Of a stretch of 61,150 nt of DNA, positions 23,510 through 30,024 are shown piece by piece. Made by a program: the position numbers and the translations under genes. This DNA comes from Clostridiales bacterium (GTDB taxonomy: Bacteria > Bacillota > Clostridia > Christensenellales > Aristaeellaceae), in the NCBI GenBank assembly GCA_012729115.1, contig JAAYDR010000049.1:1-61150 (forward strand). Reading direction: 5' to 3'. The notes beneath the pieces are model-generated. The model saw only the letters and a list, made by a program, of their open reading frames with translations. It was not told where the DNA came from and searched no databases. The number at the start of each line of letters is the position of its first letter. Within the stretch, counting starts at the first letter, position 1.

Positions 23510-25987
23510 TCATTTCGCCCCAGCGCCGGATTCTCCTTCCTGAGAGGCACAAAACCGCTCCGCCAGGCGCACGGCGGCCATGGCGTCTTTGCCGTAGCCA
23601 TCCGCGCCGATTTGATCCGCATATTCCTGGGTCAGCACCGCGCCCCCCACCATCACCCGAACATCGGGCGCTTCCCTTTTGAGCAGCGCGATGGTCCGTT
23701 CCATGGCGGGTACCGTGGTTGTCATCAGCGCGGAAAGGCCCACCAGCTTCGCATGGCTGCTTTGTACCGCTTCCAGCACCGACTGGGGCGGCACATCCCG
23801 GCCCAGATCCACCACGGAATAGCCATAGTTCCGGAGCAATACCTTGACAATGTTCTTGCCGATATCGTGCACATCCCCCTGAACTGTGGCCAGGATAACC
23901 TTTTTCCCCTGATCGGCCTGTTCCCGGGGAAGCCGCCTGCGAATTTCCTCAAAGGCTGCCTGAGCCGCCTGGGCACTTTGGAGAAGCTGGGGCAGAAACA
24001 GCCTGCCTTGCTCATATCTGTTTCCTGCCTCGGCAAGGCCCGGCATCACACAGCTTTCCACCAATCCCAGCGGCGGCGAGCCCTCCTGCAGTCTTGCTCG
24101 TACCAGCATTGCAGCCTGCGATGCCAAGCCCTGAAGAATCGCCTGGGCGGCAGGGTCGAGGCTTTGGGCCGCCCCGTCCGATTCCAGTGTCAGGTTCCCC
24201 GCAGTCTCCTGCTCACGGAGCTGGGATGTCAGCACATAATCCCCCTGCCCCCCATAAGCGGCCAAATACCGGGCAAAGCCCTCATCCCGGCCGCTGATGG
24301 CCGACGCCGCATCCATCATGGCCCGCACCATCGGCTCCAGCGGATTGAGGATGGCAGCACTCAGGCCCTGGCCGATTGCCATGGCAGTAAAGGCGGCCGT
24401 GAGCAGAGGCCGTTGAGGCAAGCCAAAGCTCACATTGCTGACACCAAGCACCGTCTTGACCCCCAGCTCTTCCCGCAGCAGACGCAGGGTTTCCAGCGTC
24501 ACACCGGGAGCTCCTTCCCCGCCCGAGGCGGCCAGGGTCAAGGCATCAAAGAGCAGCTCCCTGCGGGGGATCCCCCAGCGCTCCGCCTCCCGGATAACCC
24601 TCCGGGCTATGGCAAGCCTGCCCTGCGCGGTATCCGGAATGCCGTTGTCGTCCAGCAGCAGAACCACCAGGGCACCGCCATACTTCCTGGCCAATGGCAG
24701 CACCTGCGTAAGCACCTCCTGCTTTCCGCTGACGCTGTTGATGATGGGCTTGCCTGCATATACCCGCAGAGCAGCCTCCATGGCCTGCGCATCCGCCGAG
24801 TCAATCTGAAGGGGCAGCTCGCAGACAGTCTGGATGGCAGTGACCGCCTTTGAGAGCATCTCCGGCTCGTTAATCCCAGGCAGGCCCACATTGACGTCCA
24901 GGGCATCCGCCCCGGCCTCGGCCTGGGCCACCGCCTCACGCAGGAGGAAGTCCAGGTCGCCTTCCCGCAGGGCCTGCTTCATCCTGGGCTTGCCTGTGGG
25001 GTTGATCCTCTCGCCGATGAGCAGCGGCTTCTCCCCCATGGCCAGGGAAACTGACCGGCCCGATATCACACAGGCTTCCTCCCCATTCCTGGGAAGAGGG
25101 TTCAGGCCTTTGGTGGACCGGATCATGGATTCCAGATGGGCAGGTGTCGTGCCGCAGCACCCTCCAAGGCCCCAGACTCCAAGCTCCGCAACCTGGACCA
25201 TTTCCTGCGCAAAATCCTTCGCATCCGTGGGAAAGGTGGTGATCCCGCTTACCACCACCGGCACGCCGGCATTGGGGCTGATAAACACGGGCTTTTCGCA
25301 CCACCGGAGCAACTCCCGGGTGTGCTCCAGCAAGTCTTTGGGTCCCAGACCGCAATTGAGCCCCACCGCATCCGCTCCCAAGCCGACAAGCATGGCGGCC
25401 GTTCCCCGGATATCCGCCCCGGTAAGAAGCCGCCTCTTTCCATCAAAGGCCGCACTGCAAAAAAGCGGAACCTGAAGACCAACGGCCTCCATTGCCTCCC
25501 GGGCCCCCAGCACCGCCGCCTTCAGTTCCAGCAGGTCGGTCATCGTTTCGATGAGCACCAGATCGGCTCCGGCTGTCAGCCCCGCCTGGGCAGCCTCCCG
25601 AAATTGCTGTACCGCTTCCTCAAAGGGCATGTCCCCGTAGGGCTGCAGCAGCCGGCCCAGGCTGCTGATGTCCGCTGCCACCCAGCCATGACCGGCTTCC
25701 CGGACAGCTTCCATTGCCACTTTTACGCCGGCGGTCATCAGGGCATCGGCATCTTCCCCCAGATGGGCCCGGGTAGCCCCGAAGGTGTTGGAGGCAATGA
25801 TGTCGCATCCGGCTTCCAGGTACGCCAGGTGGACCTCCTTGACCAGCTGGGGACGTGCGATGTTCCACCGCTCCGGCTCCTCCCCTGCTTTCATTCCCCT
25901 GGCCTGAAGCAGGGTGCCCATTGCCCCGTCAAAATACAGGAACCGCTTCCCCCAAAGACTCATCAGGGTCTCCCCGCGCTTCATCAT
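23510..25987 (-). CDS. metH: Cobalamin-dependent methionine synthase, without activation domain
   Basis: 825 residues. Domains in order: homocysteine methyltransferase barrel (1-300) with zinc cysteines in GLNCGLGP (~211) and GGCCGTTP (~277); pterin-binding barrel (315-580; GERINPTGKPRMKQAL); helical cap (610-690); B12-binding domain with DVHDIGKNIV (~705), whose His is the cobalt ligand. It transfers the methyl group of methyl-tetrahydrofolate to homocysteine. The fourth, reactivation domain of long MetH is absent; the neighbouring upstream gene supplies it separately. Start at ATG 25987 overlaps the previous stop; ATG 25963 with GGGGAG upstream is an alternative. Last gene of the methionine operon. 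Confidence 0.95.
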   Translation of the reverse strand: MMKRGETLMSLWGKRFLYFDGAMGTLLQARGMKAGEEPERWNIARPQLVKEVHLAYLEAGCDIIASNTFGATRAHLGEDADALMTAGVKVAMEAVREAGHGWVAADISSLGRLLQPYGDMPFEEAVQQFREAAQAGLTAGADLVLIETMTDLLELKAAVLGAREAMEAVGLQVPLFCSAAFDGKRRLLTGADIRGTAAMLVGLGADAVGLNCGLGPKDLLEHTRELLRWCEKPVFISPNAGVPVVVSGITTFPTDAKDFAQEMVQVAELGVWGLGGCCGTTPAHLESMIRSTKGLNPLPRNGEEACVISGRSVSLAMGEKPLLIGERINPTGKPRMKQALREGDLDFLLREAVAQAEAGADALDVNVGLPGINEPEMLSKAVTAIQTVCELPLQIDSADAQAMEAALRVYAGKPIINSVSGKQEVLTQVLPLARKYGGALVVLLLDDNGIPDTAQGRLAIARRVIREAERWGIPRRELLFDALTLAASGGEGAPGVTLETLRLLREELGVKTVLGVSNVSFGLPQRPLLTAAFTAMAIGQGLSAAILNPLEPMVRAMMDAASAISGRDEGFARYLAAYGGQGDYVLTSQLREQETAGNLTLESDGAAQSLDPAAQAILQGLASQAAMLVRARLQEGSPPLGLVESCVMPGLAEAGNRYEQGRLFLPQLLQSAQAAQAAFEEIRRRLPREQADQGKKVILATVQGDVHDIGKNIVKVLLRNYGYSVVDLGRDVPPQSVLEAVQSSHAKLVGLSALMTTTVPAMERTIALLKREAPDVRVMVGGAVLTQEYADQIGADGYGKDAMAAVRLAERFCASQEGESGAGAK

Positions 25988-26673
25988 GCTTCTTCCTCCC
26001 TAAACGGACAATCCCGCTTCCCACAGTTGGAACAGCCCAGAAGGCAGGCGTTTGCCTTTTCCCGGGTGATCCCCATCACCGCGCTGACGCTTTTCTCCGG
26101 TATCATCTGGTTGGCCTGGGTTACATACACCCCCAGGGAGCTGCCTTTGCACAGGGCAATCAGGCCGGGCTGCACGGTAAGGGGCACGTCCCCATAGCCG
26201 GGACTGAAACGGGGGGTCAGGTGTTCCCCTGCAGCTGCCAGGGAAGCCTGCGCAAGGCGCAGCACCCCATCGATGTACACTTCAATCAAGGCTGAGCCGC
26301 AGGCTCCTGCGGCAGCGGCCAGGGCCGGGTCAGAAACCATCAGCCGCCGCAGGGTGAGATCCAGCTTCATGCCCAGGGTGGCCAGCAGGGCATAGCCTTC
26401 CCTGCATCCTGCCAGCAGCCGCGCCAGATGACGGCTGGGCAATGCAGGAAGAGCGCCGAAGAACACCCGGGGAGTCTCTTCCCCTTCCCCCTCCTCCACC
26501 CTCACAGGGCAGCGGACCAGGCAGTGCCTGGGCTCCGCTGCCTCCAAAGCCACCTGATAGGCTTTTTCCAGCAATGCCTCCATCCCGGTTTCCGGATTCC
26601 TCCACAACGCGCCCTTCAGGCCCAGGTACCGTGCCGCCATCCTGAGGGCCCTGCCTTTGTCCTCATGGTTCAT
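25984..26673 (-). CDS. MetH reactivation-domain protein
   Basis: 229 residues. The sequence matches the AdoMet-binding reactivation module normally at the end of MetH: YLGLKGALWRNPETGMEALLEKAYQ at the start, a central LLATLGMKLDLTLRRLM, and RFSPGYGDVPLTVQPGLIALC, which contains the RFSPGYGD-type AdoMet-binding motif. It lies between metF and metH with four-base overlaps on both sides. With S-adenosylmethionine and an electron donor it would rescue oxidised cob(II)alamin MetH. The C-terminal LGCSNCGKRDCPF is cysteine-rich. Confidence 0.92.
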   Translation of the reverse strand: MNHEDKGRALRMAARYLGLKGALWRNPETGMEALLEKAYQVALEAAEPRHCLVRCPVRVEEGEGEETPRVFFGALPALPSRHLARLLAGCREGYALLATLGMKLDLTLRRLMVSDPALAAAAGACGSALIEVYIDGVLRLAQASLAAAGEHLTPRFSPGYGDVPLTVQPGLIALCKGSSLGVYVTQANQMIPEKSVSAVMGITREKANACLLGCSNCGKRDCPFREEEA

Positions 26674-27548
26674 GCCAGGCTCCCCAAAATGGACCCCAGG
26701 TTGCCAAAGATTGCCCTGGCGATCTGAGGCTTGTTCATGGTGTACAGGTGGATATTGTGCACTCCATTGGCAATCAGGTCGATGATCTGCTCCGTGGCAT
26801 AGGCGATGCCTGCCTCGCGCATGCAGTCCGGATTGCCGCCAAACCGGTCCACAATGGCGGCAAAGCGGGGCGGCAGGCTGGCCCCGGACAGGGCTGTTAT
26901 CCTCTTGATTTGCTTTGCGTTAACCACGGGCATGATCCCGGCGGTCACGGGAACGTCAATCCCCTTTTGCAGGGCCCGATACAGGAATTGATAGAGGATG
27001 GCGTTGTCAAAAAACATCTGGGTGGTCAGAAACTCCGCCCCGGCATCCACCTTGCGGCGCAGGCCGTCCAGGTCCGCATCCCTGGAAGGCGCCTGGGGAT
27101 GACCCTCCGGATAACAGGCCCCTCCAATGCAAAAGCCCCCCCTCTCCCGGATTGCCTGGGTGAGCTCCGAAGCGTAATGGAAATGGTCCTCCCCCGGAAA
27201 ACCCGTGCCGGGAGGAATATCCCCCCGCAGGGCCAGCACATTGGTGATCCCCTCTTCCCGCAGGTCCTCCAGCACGCCGCTGATCCTGCTCCTGGTGTCG
27301 TTGATGCAGGTCAGGTGGCTCAGAGCGGGTATCCCCTGGGTCTGAACGCTTTTGCTCAACTCCCTGGTGAAATGGGGCGTGGTGCCGCCGGCTCCGTAGG
27401 TGACGGAGATATAGGCCGGCCTCAGGGCCGCGATCTCCCCCGCGACCTCCTTTACCTCCTCGATCCGGCCAAACTCCTTGGGGGGAAAAATCTCGCAGCT
27501 CAGATGCACACCCGGGGATTTCAGCATCTGGGCGATGGACTGGTTCAC
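26670..27548 (-). CDS. metF: Methylenetetrahydrofolate reductase
   Basis: 292 residues, typical bacterial length. It reduces methylene-tetrahydrofolate to methyl-tetrahydrofolate, the methyl donor for MetH encoded two genes on. Signatures are [52 protein letters not shown] and [10 protein letters not shown]. The start overlaps the end of metA by four bases. Catalytic Glu of the family (in SCEIFPP) is present. Confidence 0.95.
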
Positions 27549-28486
27549 GTTGCTCCTTCCTTTCTGCGGCCGCTGAGACTGGACAGCTCATAGGGGGTCT
27601 CCTGGTAGACAAAGTAGTTCAGCCAGTTGGAGAACAGCAAATTGGCATGGGCATGCCAACGGAGCTTGGGAAGCCGGGTGGGATCATCATCCGGGAAGTA
27701 GTTCTCCGGAACCTGGATGGGCAGGCCCTTCTCCCTATCCCGCAGGTATTCCCGAAGCAGCGTGTCCCGGTCATACTCACTGTGACCGGTGGCGAACACC
27801 CGCCGCCCATCCTGGCTTCGGGCCAGGGCCAGCCCTACCCTCGGGCTGGAAGCCAGCACCACCAGCTCCTCGCAGGCGGCCACGGCCTTCTCATCCACGG
27901 CGGTATGGCGGCTCATGGGCACACAGAAGGTATCATCGAAGCCCCGAAGCAGCTTATCCCTCCGGTCGGTCAGCTGGGTTTCATACACGCCAAAGAGCTT
28001 CCCCGGCAGCTCATACTTGCCGATGCGGTAGTGGTGGTACAGGCCTGCCTGGGCCGCCCAGCAGATGTACAGGGTGCTGAAAGCGTGGCTGTCCGCCCAG
28101 TCCATGACCCGTTTGAGCTCCTCCCAATAGGCCACATCGGAAAACTCCAGCTTTTCCACGGGCGCGCCGGTGATGATCACCCCGTCAAAATACTCGTCCT
28201 GCACGTCGGCCAGGGTGCGGTAGAAGGTATCCAGGTAGCTGTCCTGGATATGCTGGCTCTGATAGGTTCCGGTTCGCAGCAGGGTGATTTCCACCTGCAG
28301 GGGGGTATTCCCGATCAGTCGCAGAAGCTGGGTTTCCGTTTTTTCCTTGGTGGGCATCAGGTTCAGAATGACGATATGAAGGGGACGGATATCCTGGGTG
28401 GCGCTTCGCTTTTCCGTCATCACAAAGATATTTTCCTCGGTGAGGATGCGGGTGGCGGGCAGCGCATCGGGGATTTTTACAGGCAT
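27545..28486 (-). CDS. metA: Homoserine O-acetyltransferase (MetA family)
   Basis: 313 residues. The catalytic Cys142 is in [14 protein letters not shown]. Residue 111 is Glu ([10 protein letters not shown]); in characterised MetA proteins Glu111 selects acetyl-CoA whereas Gly gives succinyl-CoA. I therefore call an acetyltransferase despite the family name. RHTAV supplies the usual His and [12 protein letters not shown] is well conserved. Its product, O-acetylhomoserine, is the substrate of the enzyme encoded just upstream, whose gene overlaps it by 10 bases. Confidence 0.93.
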
Positions 28487-29781
28487 GAGGATTCCTCCCC
28501 CTGGGATGCGGCGAGGGCCTCCTCAAGGTCGGTGATGAGATCCGCCGGATCCTCCAAACCGATGCTCAGGCGGATCATTCCCGGATCGATCCCGCAGGCA
28601 GCCAGCTCGGCCTCGCTCATCTGGCCGTGGGTGGTGCTGGCCGGGTGGATGACAAGGCTTTTGGCATCCGCCACGTTGGCCAGCAGACTGAAGAGCCTGA
28701 GATGGTTGATGAACCTGCGGCCGGCCGGAAGCCCTCCCTTGACGCTAAAACTAAGCACGGCCCCCGCGCCTATGGGCAGATACTTTCTGGCCCGCTCATG
28801 GTAGGGATCTTCCTTGAGCATGGGATAATACACATAATCCACAGCCGGATGCCCGCTTAACCACTTGGCGATGGTCAGAGCATTCTCGCAGTGGCGCTTC
28901 ACCCGCAGGCTCAATGTCTCCAGCCCCTGCAAAAACAAAAACGCGCTGAAGGGGCTCAGGCAGCCTCCCATCTCCCGGAGCATCTGCATACGCAATCGCG
29001 TAGCCACCGGGGCGTCCTCCCTGGCATAGACCAGGTTCCTGTGCTGCACATCCGGCATGTTGTAAGCCGGATACCGCCCGTTGGTAAAGTCAAAGCCCCC
29101 CAGATCCACCACCGCGCCGCCAATGGTGGTTCCATGACCCCCGGCGTACTTGCTCAGGGAATGGATGACCACATTGATTCCCCAGACCCTGGCATCAAAC
29201 ATGGGCGGGATGCCGAAGGTATTATCCAGCACCACCACAACCCCATGCCTTTTGGCAATGGCCACGATGGCCTCAAAGTCCGGGATGTTGATCTTGGGGT
29301 TGCAGATGGTTTCCAGAAAGATCATGCGGGTGTTGGGCCTGATGGCATTTTCCAGGGCCTGGAGATCATCCGGGGGTACAAATGTGGTGTGAATGTTGCT
29401 GATCTGCGGGAGTCTGTAGCTTAGCAGGGTATGGGTGCCTCCATACAGGGTGGAAATGGAAACGATGTGATCCGAATGCCCGCACAGGGCGTAGACTGTC
29501 GCCGTCACCGCCGCCATGCCGCTGGCAAAGGCTACCGCGCCCCGCCCCTTCTCCAAAGCGGCGATACGCTCCTCCAGAGCTGTTACGGTGGGGTTGTCAA
29601 TGCGGGTATAGACGAAGCCCTCCGCCTTTCCTTCGAAAACGTCGGCGGCGTACTCCGCCGTGGGGTAACAGTAGCTGGTTGTCTGGTAGATGGGCATGGC
29701 CCGGGAATGGGTCTGGCTGTCGGGCCGCTGCCCGGCATGAAGCTGCAGGGTATCAAAGCCATATTCCGGTCTGTCGCTCAT
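28477..29781 (-). CDS. metY: O-acetylhomoserine aminocarboxypropyltransferase (sulfhydrylase)
   Basis: 434 residues, the MetY length, with AAAGGAG before the [30 protein letters not shown] is the family opening, and the pyridoxal phosphate lysine (about 210) is in [17 protein letters not shown]. It makes homocysteine (or methionine with methanethiol) directly from O-acetylhomoserine and sulfide, which agrees with the acetyl-type MetA. It is first in an operon metY-metA-metF-activator-metH that turns homoserine into methionine. Control is suggested by a leader with promoter, short Met-rich reading frame and terminator. Confidence 0.94.
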
Positions 29782-29828
29782 TGCACTCCACTCCTTTCAT
29801 CAATCACATGCTGAAGGCTTTATGGTAT

Positions 29829-29862
29829 AAAAAAAGCCCTTCCCTTGCGGGGAGGGCTTTTT
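29829..29862 (-). terminator. Attenuator-type terminator in the metY leader
   Basis: On the minus strand GCCCTCCCC and GGGAAGGGC (arms at 29849-29857 and 29836-29844) form a stem with one C-A mismatch, closed by a GCAA tetraloop. Seven T follow. It lies between the metY promoter and the metY start, so it can only end the leader transcript. The upstream segment GCGGGGGATGGGC (29938-29950) can pair with its first arm instead. Confidence 0.75.
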
Positions 29863-29873
29863 TGTGCACAGCA

Positions 29874-29924
29874 TCAGCCACGTCCGCGAAGGGTACGCAA
29901 AAAAGGCATGCCGCGCATCATCAT
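29874..29924 (-). CDS. Putative Met-rich leader peptide of the methionine operon
   Basis: A 16-codon frame reads MMMRGMPFLRTLRGRG and stops 17 bases before the terminator arm. GAGGAG lies four bases before the first ATG and seven before the second. Four of the first six residues are Met, the end product of the operon, as in classic amino-acid leader peptides. Whether it is translated cannot be judged from sequence alone. Confidence 0.5.
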   Translation of the reverse strand: MMMRGMPFLRTLRGRG

Positions 29925-29995
29925 GGGGCTCCTCATTGCCCATCCCCCGCTTTCCTCGGTGTCTCCGTCCCAAAGCACTCATCAGGATTTTCAAA

Positions 29996-30024
29996 ATGGT
30001 ACCAGAGCCGGAAACCTCTGTCAA
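29996..30024 (-). promoter_or_regulatory. Promoter TTGACA-17-TACCAT for the met operon
   Basis: On the minus strand TTGACA (30019-30024) and TACCAT (29996-30001) are 17 bases apart. The transcript would carry a leader of about 200 bases (29782-29990) without any SAM riboswitch core or T-box that I can recognise. Confidence 0.6.

Follow-up and report, generated by a model that had tools for sequence, protein, structure and literature searches.

The methionine genes in the stretch of DNA analyzed here (the window; 61,150 nucleotides of a Clostridiales genome, contig JAAYDR010000049.1) are preceded by a leader that, judged from its sequence, is probably a ribosome-mediated transcription attenuator sensing charged methionine tRNA. 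A promoter, a Shine-Dalgarno sequence, a 16-codon reading frame and an intrinsic terminator lie ahead of metY, the first gene; these parts are conserved in five relatives, and the distance from one AUG of the frame to its stop codon is fixed. The mechanism as such, ribosome-mediated attenuation, is old; it is the methionine specificity and the taxon that would be new. If the reading is true, methionine would join the amino acids sensed through a leader peptide, among which it has been missing.

Anatomy of the metY leader and its operon

The original prediction had placed a promoter, a Shine-Dalgarno sequence, the 16-codon frame, a GNRA-capped terminator and the metY start in this region, and every one of them was found again at the same positions. 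The elements of the leader and the genes behind it are the following, in the order of transcription:

29996 to 30024, minus strand: sigma-70-type promoter TTGACA-17-TACCAT (TTGACA 30024-30019, TACCAT 30001-29996)
29938 to 29950, minus strand: segment 0, GCGGGGGATGGGC, complementary to the 5' arm of the terminator; the antiterminator of the original prediction
29929 to 29934, minus strand: Shine-Dalgarno sequence GAGGAG of the leader frame
29874 to 29924, minus strand: 16-codon leader frame MMMRGMPFLRTLRGRG and stop codon, with relatives in loci L011, L015, L061, L062 and L063
29916 to 29918, minus strand: third AUG of the leader; an AUG at this distance from the stop, 14 codons, is shared by the six leaders
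29907 to 29909, minus strand: further in-frame AUG (Met6), 22 nt before segment 2; L011 and L061 have one too
29874 to 29887, minus strand: segment 2, GCGGACGUGGCUGA, which holds the leader stop; conserved antiterminator candidate
29847 to 29857, minus strand: segment 3, GCCCUCCCCGC, 5' arm of the terminator; AAGCCCUCCC is invariant in the six leaders
29829 to 29844, minus strand: segment 4, GGGAAGGGC, the 3' arm of the terminator, followed by its U7 tail
28477 to 29781, minus strand: metY, O-acetylhomoserine sulfhydrylase, first gene (TIGR01326, 522.5 bits, cut-off 495.1)
27545 to 28486, minus strand: metA, homoserine acyltransferase (NF047918, 459.8 bits, just under the cut-off of 460.5)
26670 to 27548, minus strand: metF, methylenetetrahydrofolate reductase (TIGR00676, 282 bits, below the cut-off of 293.7)
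25984 to 26673, minus strand: 229-residue frame without an NCBIfam match at 1e-10 or a Pfam match at 0.001
23510 to 25987, minus strand: metH-like methionine synthase, 825 residues (TIGR02082, 457.9 bits, below the cut-off of 1010.85)

The promoter matches the consensus at 10 of 12 positions, with a 17-nt spacer and a TG ahead of the second hexamer. The terminator hairpin (29857-29836, minus strand) is closed by a GCAA loop of the GNRA kind and followed by seven U at 29835-29829. As for the operon, the genes expected in the order metY-metA-metF-metH are all there, except that metF and metH are not direct neighbors: the 229-residue frame lies in between. Within 23510-26673, the metH-like protein ends ahead of the last third of the family model, covering positions 3-857 of the 1182 in TIGR02082, and the frame directly before its gene may provide a missing part. 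The genome assembly comprises 124 contigs and 3.15 Mb.

Conservation of the leader in metY orthologs

We searched metY in 17 genomes of the genus, 16 of which gave matches, and in 308 genomes of the family, with matches in 194 at E values up to 1e-100. Close orthologs, defined by a metY identity of at least 67%, number nine including the window. A conserved short Met-rich frame in orthologous leaders, named as a check in the original prediction, is present together with the terminator in six of these nine (window included), which belong to two genera; L012, L013 and L014 show no such leader within the 500 nt upstream that were examined. The frames of the relatives read MTKKNTMRMFPMPFLCTLCGRG in L011, MAMRWFDQARMPGRVCLPSLCGLG in L015, MTMSMRMFDMCVRRPDSGRG in L061, MTMSMRMFCGFVRRPDSGRG in L062, where the start is possibly a GUG, and MRTMNMRMLGVLVRRPDSGRG in L063. 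In each of the six loci a TTGACA is found 219-291 nt upstream of the start of the metY match, the terminator hairpin (-12 to -20 kcal/mol) is followed by a U tract, and metA lies on the same strand behind metY, at a distance of 0.5-0.7 kb in the case of L061 and L063.

The geometry of the frame is the most constant feature. An in-frame AUG, picked after the alignment had been inspected, stands exactly 31 nt before the block GCGGnCnUGGnUGA in all six leaders; the final three bases of this block are the leader stop, so that AUG and stop are always 14 codons apart. Between them the 28-nt spacer keeps its length with an identity of only 32-43% between genera g1 and g9, and the segment 2 block is 86-100% identical across all pairs of the six leaders. 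A fixed distance despite a divergent spacer favors sensing at the level of the codon, i.e. by Met-tRNA, over a signal in the peptide. Constant spacing together with a variable peptide is expected if the position of the ribosome relative to an RNA element matters and the sequence of the peptide does not.

The same comparison bears on nascent-chain arrest, in which the leader peptide, with methionine or SAM as co-factor, would stall the ribosome. The codon ahead of the fixed AUG is CGA in the five relatives and AUG in the window; Arg-Met, encoded by CGA-AUG, thus recurs in five of the six leaders of the window type and in other leaders as well, and a further, terminator-less type described below often ends in ..LSRNRM. 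Yet the residues before the fixed AUG are few (2 to about 10) and not conserved, the window having only Met-Met and no Arg there, and the 13 codons after it are just 15-38% identical between genera. We consider arrest by the peptide improbable.

Methionine codons are enriched in the set: 17 of 115 codons over the six leaders are internal Met versus 3.2% in eleven genes of the window (nominal P 2e-7, a value that counts related leaders as independent). Taken singly, the window leader has 3 of 15 (P 0.011), and L015 is not enriched (1 of 21, P 0.50). A frame of this kind, defined as a Shine-Dalgarno sequence followed by 8-25 amino acids with at least three internal Met, arose 14 times when the window leader was shuffled 5000 times by a first-order Markov model; among 102 metY upstream regions it occurs in seven, five of them of the window type, versus a mean of 0.1 over 20 rounds of shuffling. 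The shuffle count for the window leader and the recurrence of the frame with fixed geometry in five relatives speak against an incidental short frame behind an ordinary promoter, regulated or constitutive, with a terminator that acts partially. The folding energy of the whole window leader is indeed not extreme (z -1.49), which would suit an incidental frame, though z falls to -2.67 for the stretch ending at the U tract; altogether we regard this reading as very unlikely.

Leaders of the window type are known in two genera only. The segment 2 pattern was dropped as a finder of this type: it occurs in 41 of the 308 family genomes, and the 30 loci examined yielded just the three leaders already known. 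A covariance model (R1) run against 396 genomes of the order gave matches in 17, only three besides the window extending over the full model; the R1 matches L146, L150, L152 and L154 were examined and are not leaders of the window type.

Search for known regulatory RNAs

In Bacillota, genes of this kind are usually controlled by SAM riboswitches and T-boxes, and methionine is the standard example of riboswitch or T-box control in Gram-positive bacteria. No Rfam family reached its gathering score anywhere in the window. Between 29500 and 30200, 14 sub-threshold matches were obtained at E values up to 5, the best being Thr_leader on the plus strand (E 0.018); the minus strand gave Thr_leader at E 0.22 and Phe_leader at E 0.75. 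The Thr_leader and Phe_leader matches are based mainly on the terminator hairpin. For the SAM riboswitch (RF00162) and the T-box (RF00230), no covariance-model match was found in the window leader or in the five related leaders. The earlier observation that the leader region has neither a SAM riboswitch nor a Met T-box therefore holds, and both RNAs were rejected as the identity of the leader. Furthermore, the upstream regions of L012, L013 and L014 contain no Rfam RNA, and a search of 32 loci against Rfam produced no leader match and one tRNA, in L016.

The genome itself does carry such RNAs elsewhere: a single SAM riboswitch match upstream of metK (L001, G000:C120:138919-139020) and, at E up to 0.001, 11 T-box matches, all outside the leader region, of which two exceed the cut-off. 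Hence, the searches are able to find such RNAs here, and a covariance match in the region, which the original prediction had named as grounds for abandoning it, did not appear. As a positive control, a metY that is 51% identical, in another Bacillota genome (L030, contig scan), has a SAM riboswitch upstream. That case and the usual controls in Bacillota are what favors a diverged SAM riboswitch or Met T-box in the window leader, an explanation to which we give hardly any credence, given that window and relatives are without an Rfam match though identical searches succeed elsewhere in the genome. Since the sole SAM riboswitch match precedes metK, SAM and methionine are apparently sensed by different devices in this organism. 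If the attenuator is real, the biosynthetic operon senses methionine itself, through its charged tRNA, and the SAM riboswitch is kept for metK.

A protein-family name for the leader peptides was likewise rejected; the tested peptides match no NCBIfam or Pfam model.

Proposed mechanism and candidate antiterminators

According to our model, a ribosome would be translating the 16-codon leader as RNA polymerase transcribes the terminator. With ample Met-tRNA, the ribosome would reach the stop codon inside segment 2 (29887-29874) and prevent this segment from pairing; the terminator formed by segments 3 and 4 would then halt transcription ahead of metY. Under a shortage of Met-tRNA, the ribosome would wait on the AUG codons (29924-29907), so that segment 2, or alternatively segment 0 (29950-29938), could pair with segment 3 instead. 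With segment 3 captured, metY-metA-metF-metH would be transcribed. Translation of the frame, stalling on AUG, the direction of the response and the choice of antiterminator segment are what this model infers.

Sensing could also act at initiation, a shortage of fMet-tRNA slowing initiation on the leader and setting antitermination without stalling at internal AUG codons. Such a device has been suggested for the streptococcal fthC uORF in PMC11109978. It would require no internal AUG codons and no constant spacing between one of them and the stop, and seems to us quite unlikely.

What is more challenging is the assignment of the antiterminator in the attenuator model. The duplex of segments 2 and 3 amounts to -13.8 kcal/mol in the window and to -12.3 to -13.8 kcal/mol across the six leaders; between 163 and 422 of 1000 shuffled versions of segment 2 pair equally well. 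The complementarity noted originally, between 29950-29938 and 29857-29847, is real and strong in the window (-22.8 kcal/mol), only 13 of 1000 shuffles equaling it. Among the relatives, the duplex of segments 0 and 3 is strong in L015 (-18.0 kcal/mol) and L063 (-16.0) and weak in L061 (-11.8), L062 (-11.1) and L011 (-9.9). Besides the window it stands out from shuffles only in L015 (23 of 1000 as good); the counts for L061, L062 and L011 are 133, 309 and 628 of 1000. The block that is common to all six leaders is instead segment 2, 29874-29887. Neither pairing shows covariation in the six window-type leaders; segments 2 and 3 hardly vary, so that no covariation is available to count.

Predicted folds gave a mixed picture. 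When a ribosome was placed on the fixed AUG and folding was limited to the RNA behind it, before segment 4 is made, the 2:3 pairing dominates in L015 (7.3 pairs) and is weak in the window and L011 (about 2 pairs); in genus g9 a hairpin of segments 1 and 2 dominates (-13.9 kcal/mol), an outcome that in a simple scheme of the trp kind would mean termination. With upstream RNA included, the 0:3 pairing dominates in the window with the ribosome at the AUG or at the stop, and neither 2:3 nor 0:3 dominates in genus g9. Full-length RNA folds into the terminator every time. Of the two checks that had been proposed, the fold does not decide between the segments; as to the conserved pairing, the segment 2 block is found in 6 of 6 leaders, and segment 0 varies in strength.

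That segment 0 is the antiterminator is possible in our judgment, though rather unlikely. A stalled ribosome would block new initiation and so free the region around the Shine-Dalgarno sequence to pair with segment 3; the three strong duplexes suit this form, it is the dominant pairing in window folds before segment 4 (10.6 pairs), and in the leaders 19-31 nt separate the end of segment 0 from the fixed AUG that follows. Against it stand the three weak duplexes and the fact that a purine-rich Shine-Dalgarno sequence is naturally complementary to CCCUCCC; in the relatives the equivalent of segment 0 overlaps this purine-rich region. Moreover, the pairing forms in the window at the AUG and at the stop alike, and in L015 only at the stop, so that it fails to discriminate as needed.

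Several observations count against the attenuator as a whole: the pairing is without covariation, the folds depart from the simple trp-like scheme, L012-L014 are without the leader, L015 is not enriched in Met, the window-type MetY is not depleted of Met and Cys, and leaders of this type occur in only two genera. Attenuation by a Met leader peptide, as originally proposed, is partly supported: the frame and the terminator are conserved in six of nine orthologs, with a fixed AUG, whereas the antiterminator is a choice between two candidates and three orthologs are without the leader.

Leaders with methionine and cysteine codons

A wider set of 102 metY upstream regions was composed of 18 loci (L010-L027), 24 loci (L061-L084) and 60 further regions taken near the rank order of metY matches, with places in G093, G284:C397 and G163 passed over; the set does not extend to matches that ranked lower or were unlisted, or to the fragments L028-L029. 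In 62 of the 102, CGAATG is present within the final 330 nt, versus a Markov expectation of 15.6 and a maximum of 26. By our class rule, the set contains 25 leaders of a second type (type A; M-C-C-R-M, CGA-AUG, CUCCCGG), 6 of the window type (type C), 26 other uORFs with Arg-Met and 45 regions with none, a class in which the rule also counts L016, L067 and L129, which are Met-rich without CGAATG; it likewise misses L093, L117, L120, L132 and L141 (..SRNRM or alike).

Type A is centered on CUCCCGG, which occurs 30 times in the 102 regions and has an AUG 8 nt before it in 25 cases. In these 25, CGA precedes the AUG without exception, Cys precedes CGA in 23 and stands one codon earlier in 17, and an AUG stands one codon earlier still in 24; the type was tested from the CUCCCGG end only. 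Each of the 25 is matched by a reverse complement, 9 nt or longer, that lies at the 5' arm of the terminator, 90-107 nt beyond the AUG. In the resulting helix of 12 pairs, 91.3% of the cells pair versus 15-56% when the arms are slid; eight pairs are invariant, the two outermost often fail, one pair changes from GC to AU in four sequences and one from AU to UA in one. The covariation score is matched by 2 of 500 shuffles, with a slide by -3 scoring slightly higher (0.092 vs 0.087), and the observed values are reached by shuffles in 87 of 500 for cells paired, 61 of 500 for double-change pairs and 475 of 500 for further pair types. Covariation support for the type A helix is moderate.

The codon CGA before the AUG is the rarest Arg codon in the genes of the window (7 of 249) and appears once among 146 in eight metY genes. 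It was read slowly in Salmonella his-leader assays, according to PMC4046918. If the attenuator reading is true, the repeated occurrence of CGA ahead of the sensed AUG allows predictions, open to experiment, on how attenuators tune the speed of the ribosome, and CGA-AUG followed at a fixed distance by a pairing block would be a simple rule for finding such leaders.

The pattern TGYCGAATGN5CTCCCGG is present in 51 of 308 family genomes and 11 of 50 genera, including G013 of the window's genus and not the window's own genome. Outside the family it was found in 10 of 391 genomes of the class, in four other families; a backward control gave none. A downstream complement of at least 9 nt is present at 29 of 30 family loci, L188 having 7 nt, and one of 8-11 nt at seven of eight class loci, L197 being without. 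Behind the family loci, 14 have a metY homolog (BLAST). Others precede a MetN-like ATPase (L175), a MetQ-like lipoprotein (L178), an amino-acid-binding protein (L167) or PepT-like peptidases (L171, and L182 by likeness); at eight loci two frames in succession look like permeases, L189 and L191 carry long frames, and L195 (G013) has broken metY fragments and then cysK. At the class loci, the genes are MetQ-like in three (L201 by Pfam; L202 and L203 by likeness) and a permease in L198. No Rfam, NCBIfam or Pfam entry was found for the type A leader.

The type A leaders make attenuation by a leader peptide with Met and Cys codons very likely in this group, as a pattern. The window leader is a Met-only relative in kind, placed before the same gene and with a different pairing block. 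Beyond this we lean towards the view that the window leader is one form of a wide system of sulfur amino-acid control in the class, in which leader peptides around CGA-AUG (a slow Arg before the sensed Met) replace SAM riboswitches and T-boxes. Met-only (window), Met-and-Cys (M-C-C-R-M) and terminator-less (..LSRNRM) forms would control methionine synthesis, the uptake of methionine and other amino acids, and related genes, and in the latter two MetY would have lost every internal Met and Cys and could be made while both are missing.

MetY proteins without methionine and cysteine

Over the 424-428 matched residues, the MetY proteins of all five type A loci among L073-L084 have no internal Met and no Cys, and most of the additional ones examined lack both as well. 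The same is true of L071, L077 and L083, with leaders of the terminator-less type, and of L016, with a Met/Cys-rich leader. Most other MetY proteins contain 6-16 Met and 3-13 Cys. Where type A leaders precede MetQ-like genes (L178, L201-L203), the proteins lack internal Met and contain a single Cys. A MetY without Met and Cys suits genes made when both amino acids are short, and, if the attenuators are real, such enzymes behind related leaders are an independent sign of the starvation answered. The link with the leader is not strict: L076, L080 and L082 encode a MetY free of both and have no leader by the class rule, and the L026 MetY has 2 Met. The window MetY, with 11 internal Met and 7 Cys, is not depleted, nor are its window-type relatives (6-12 Met, 6-9 Cys).

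Relation to known attenuators

Leader-peptide attenuators of the trp, his, thr, leu and ilv operons are known in Proteobacteria. The window leader resembles them in its promoter, its Shine-Dalgarno sequence, a short frame with repeated control codons, an intrinsic terminator, a candidate alternative pairing and a cognate biosynthetic operon downstream; it differs in the amino acid, methionine, in its Clostridia-type genome and in an antiterminator that is still a candidate. The SAM riboswitch (RF00162) and the T-box (RF00230) control the same kind of genes and have no covariance-model match here. In Bacilli, histidine leader peptides precede hisS/hisZ paralogs, as given by Naville and Gautheret 2010 (PMC2965389); there too, leader-peptide attenuation replaces a T-box in Bacillota, with His codons and hisS-type genes in place of the codons and genes considered here. 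Two further papers describe uORFC-8-2, a leader with tandem Cys codons before cysS of Rhodobacterales (PMC8632094), and the ilvB uORF of Corynebacterium (PMC11109978). Both share control codons in a uORF and a terminator with the window leader, and belong to other amino acids, genes and phyla. For Mycobacterium, PMC1262725 reports leader frames with Cys codons before cys operons, without a conserved terminator hairpin; sulfur amino-acid codons in the leader are common to both cases, Cys there and Met here. According to the same paper, there is no conserved RNA structure upstream of methionine operons in Actinobacteria. In the open-access literature searched, with most subscription papers and preprints outside it, we found no methionine leader-peptide attenuator.

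Additional leaders upstream of metY and other genes

The type A metY loci are L073, L078, L079, L081, L084, L087, L089, L090, L097, L099-L106, L111, L114, L124, L128, L130, L133, L142 and L143; the pattern loci are L167-L204. The promoters upstream of L026, L073, L078, L079, L081 and L084 read TTGACATAGTAGG, which points to a repressor site covering the -35 region as a possible control besides the leader.

Several single leaders have features of their own. L016 (G014:C16) has a Met/Cys-rich frame, MISQVTVMMMEMCMWSCCMCAALCMFLSGVRSVSG, 325-217 nt before the metY match and a strong terminator of -26.8 kcal/mol, and L129 (G122:C20) a Met/Cys-rich leader frame, MVTRFQMRMCMCQMCMCRPASMPSLHT, 274-190 nt before metY. 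The leader MLNMFYNRMHRYGGVPYALF of L064 (G101:C296) contains CGA-AUG and has an 11-bp complement, GU pairs allowed, to the terminator arm, with 2 of 60 shuffles as good. In L067 (G065:C198) the Met-rich leader MVSVWSMRMPMRGEMFPAPLRV and a strong terminator precede metY, with CGG and not CGA ahead of the AUG; no antiterminator better than in shuffles was found there (31 of 60 as good).

The terminator-less uORFs end in ..LSRNRM(C) or alike, often with CGA-AUG right before the stop, and no terminator was seen by eye. They occur at L071, L077, L085, L091, L093-L096, L108, L110, L112, L115-L117, L119, L120, L125, L131, L132, L134-L136, L138, L140, L141 and L144. Twenty-two uORFs of this type all precede proteins that start with MSDI.
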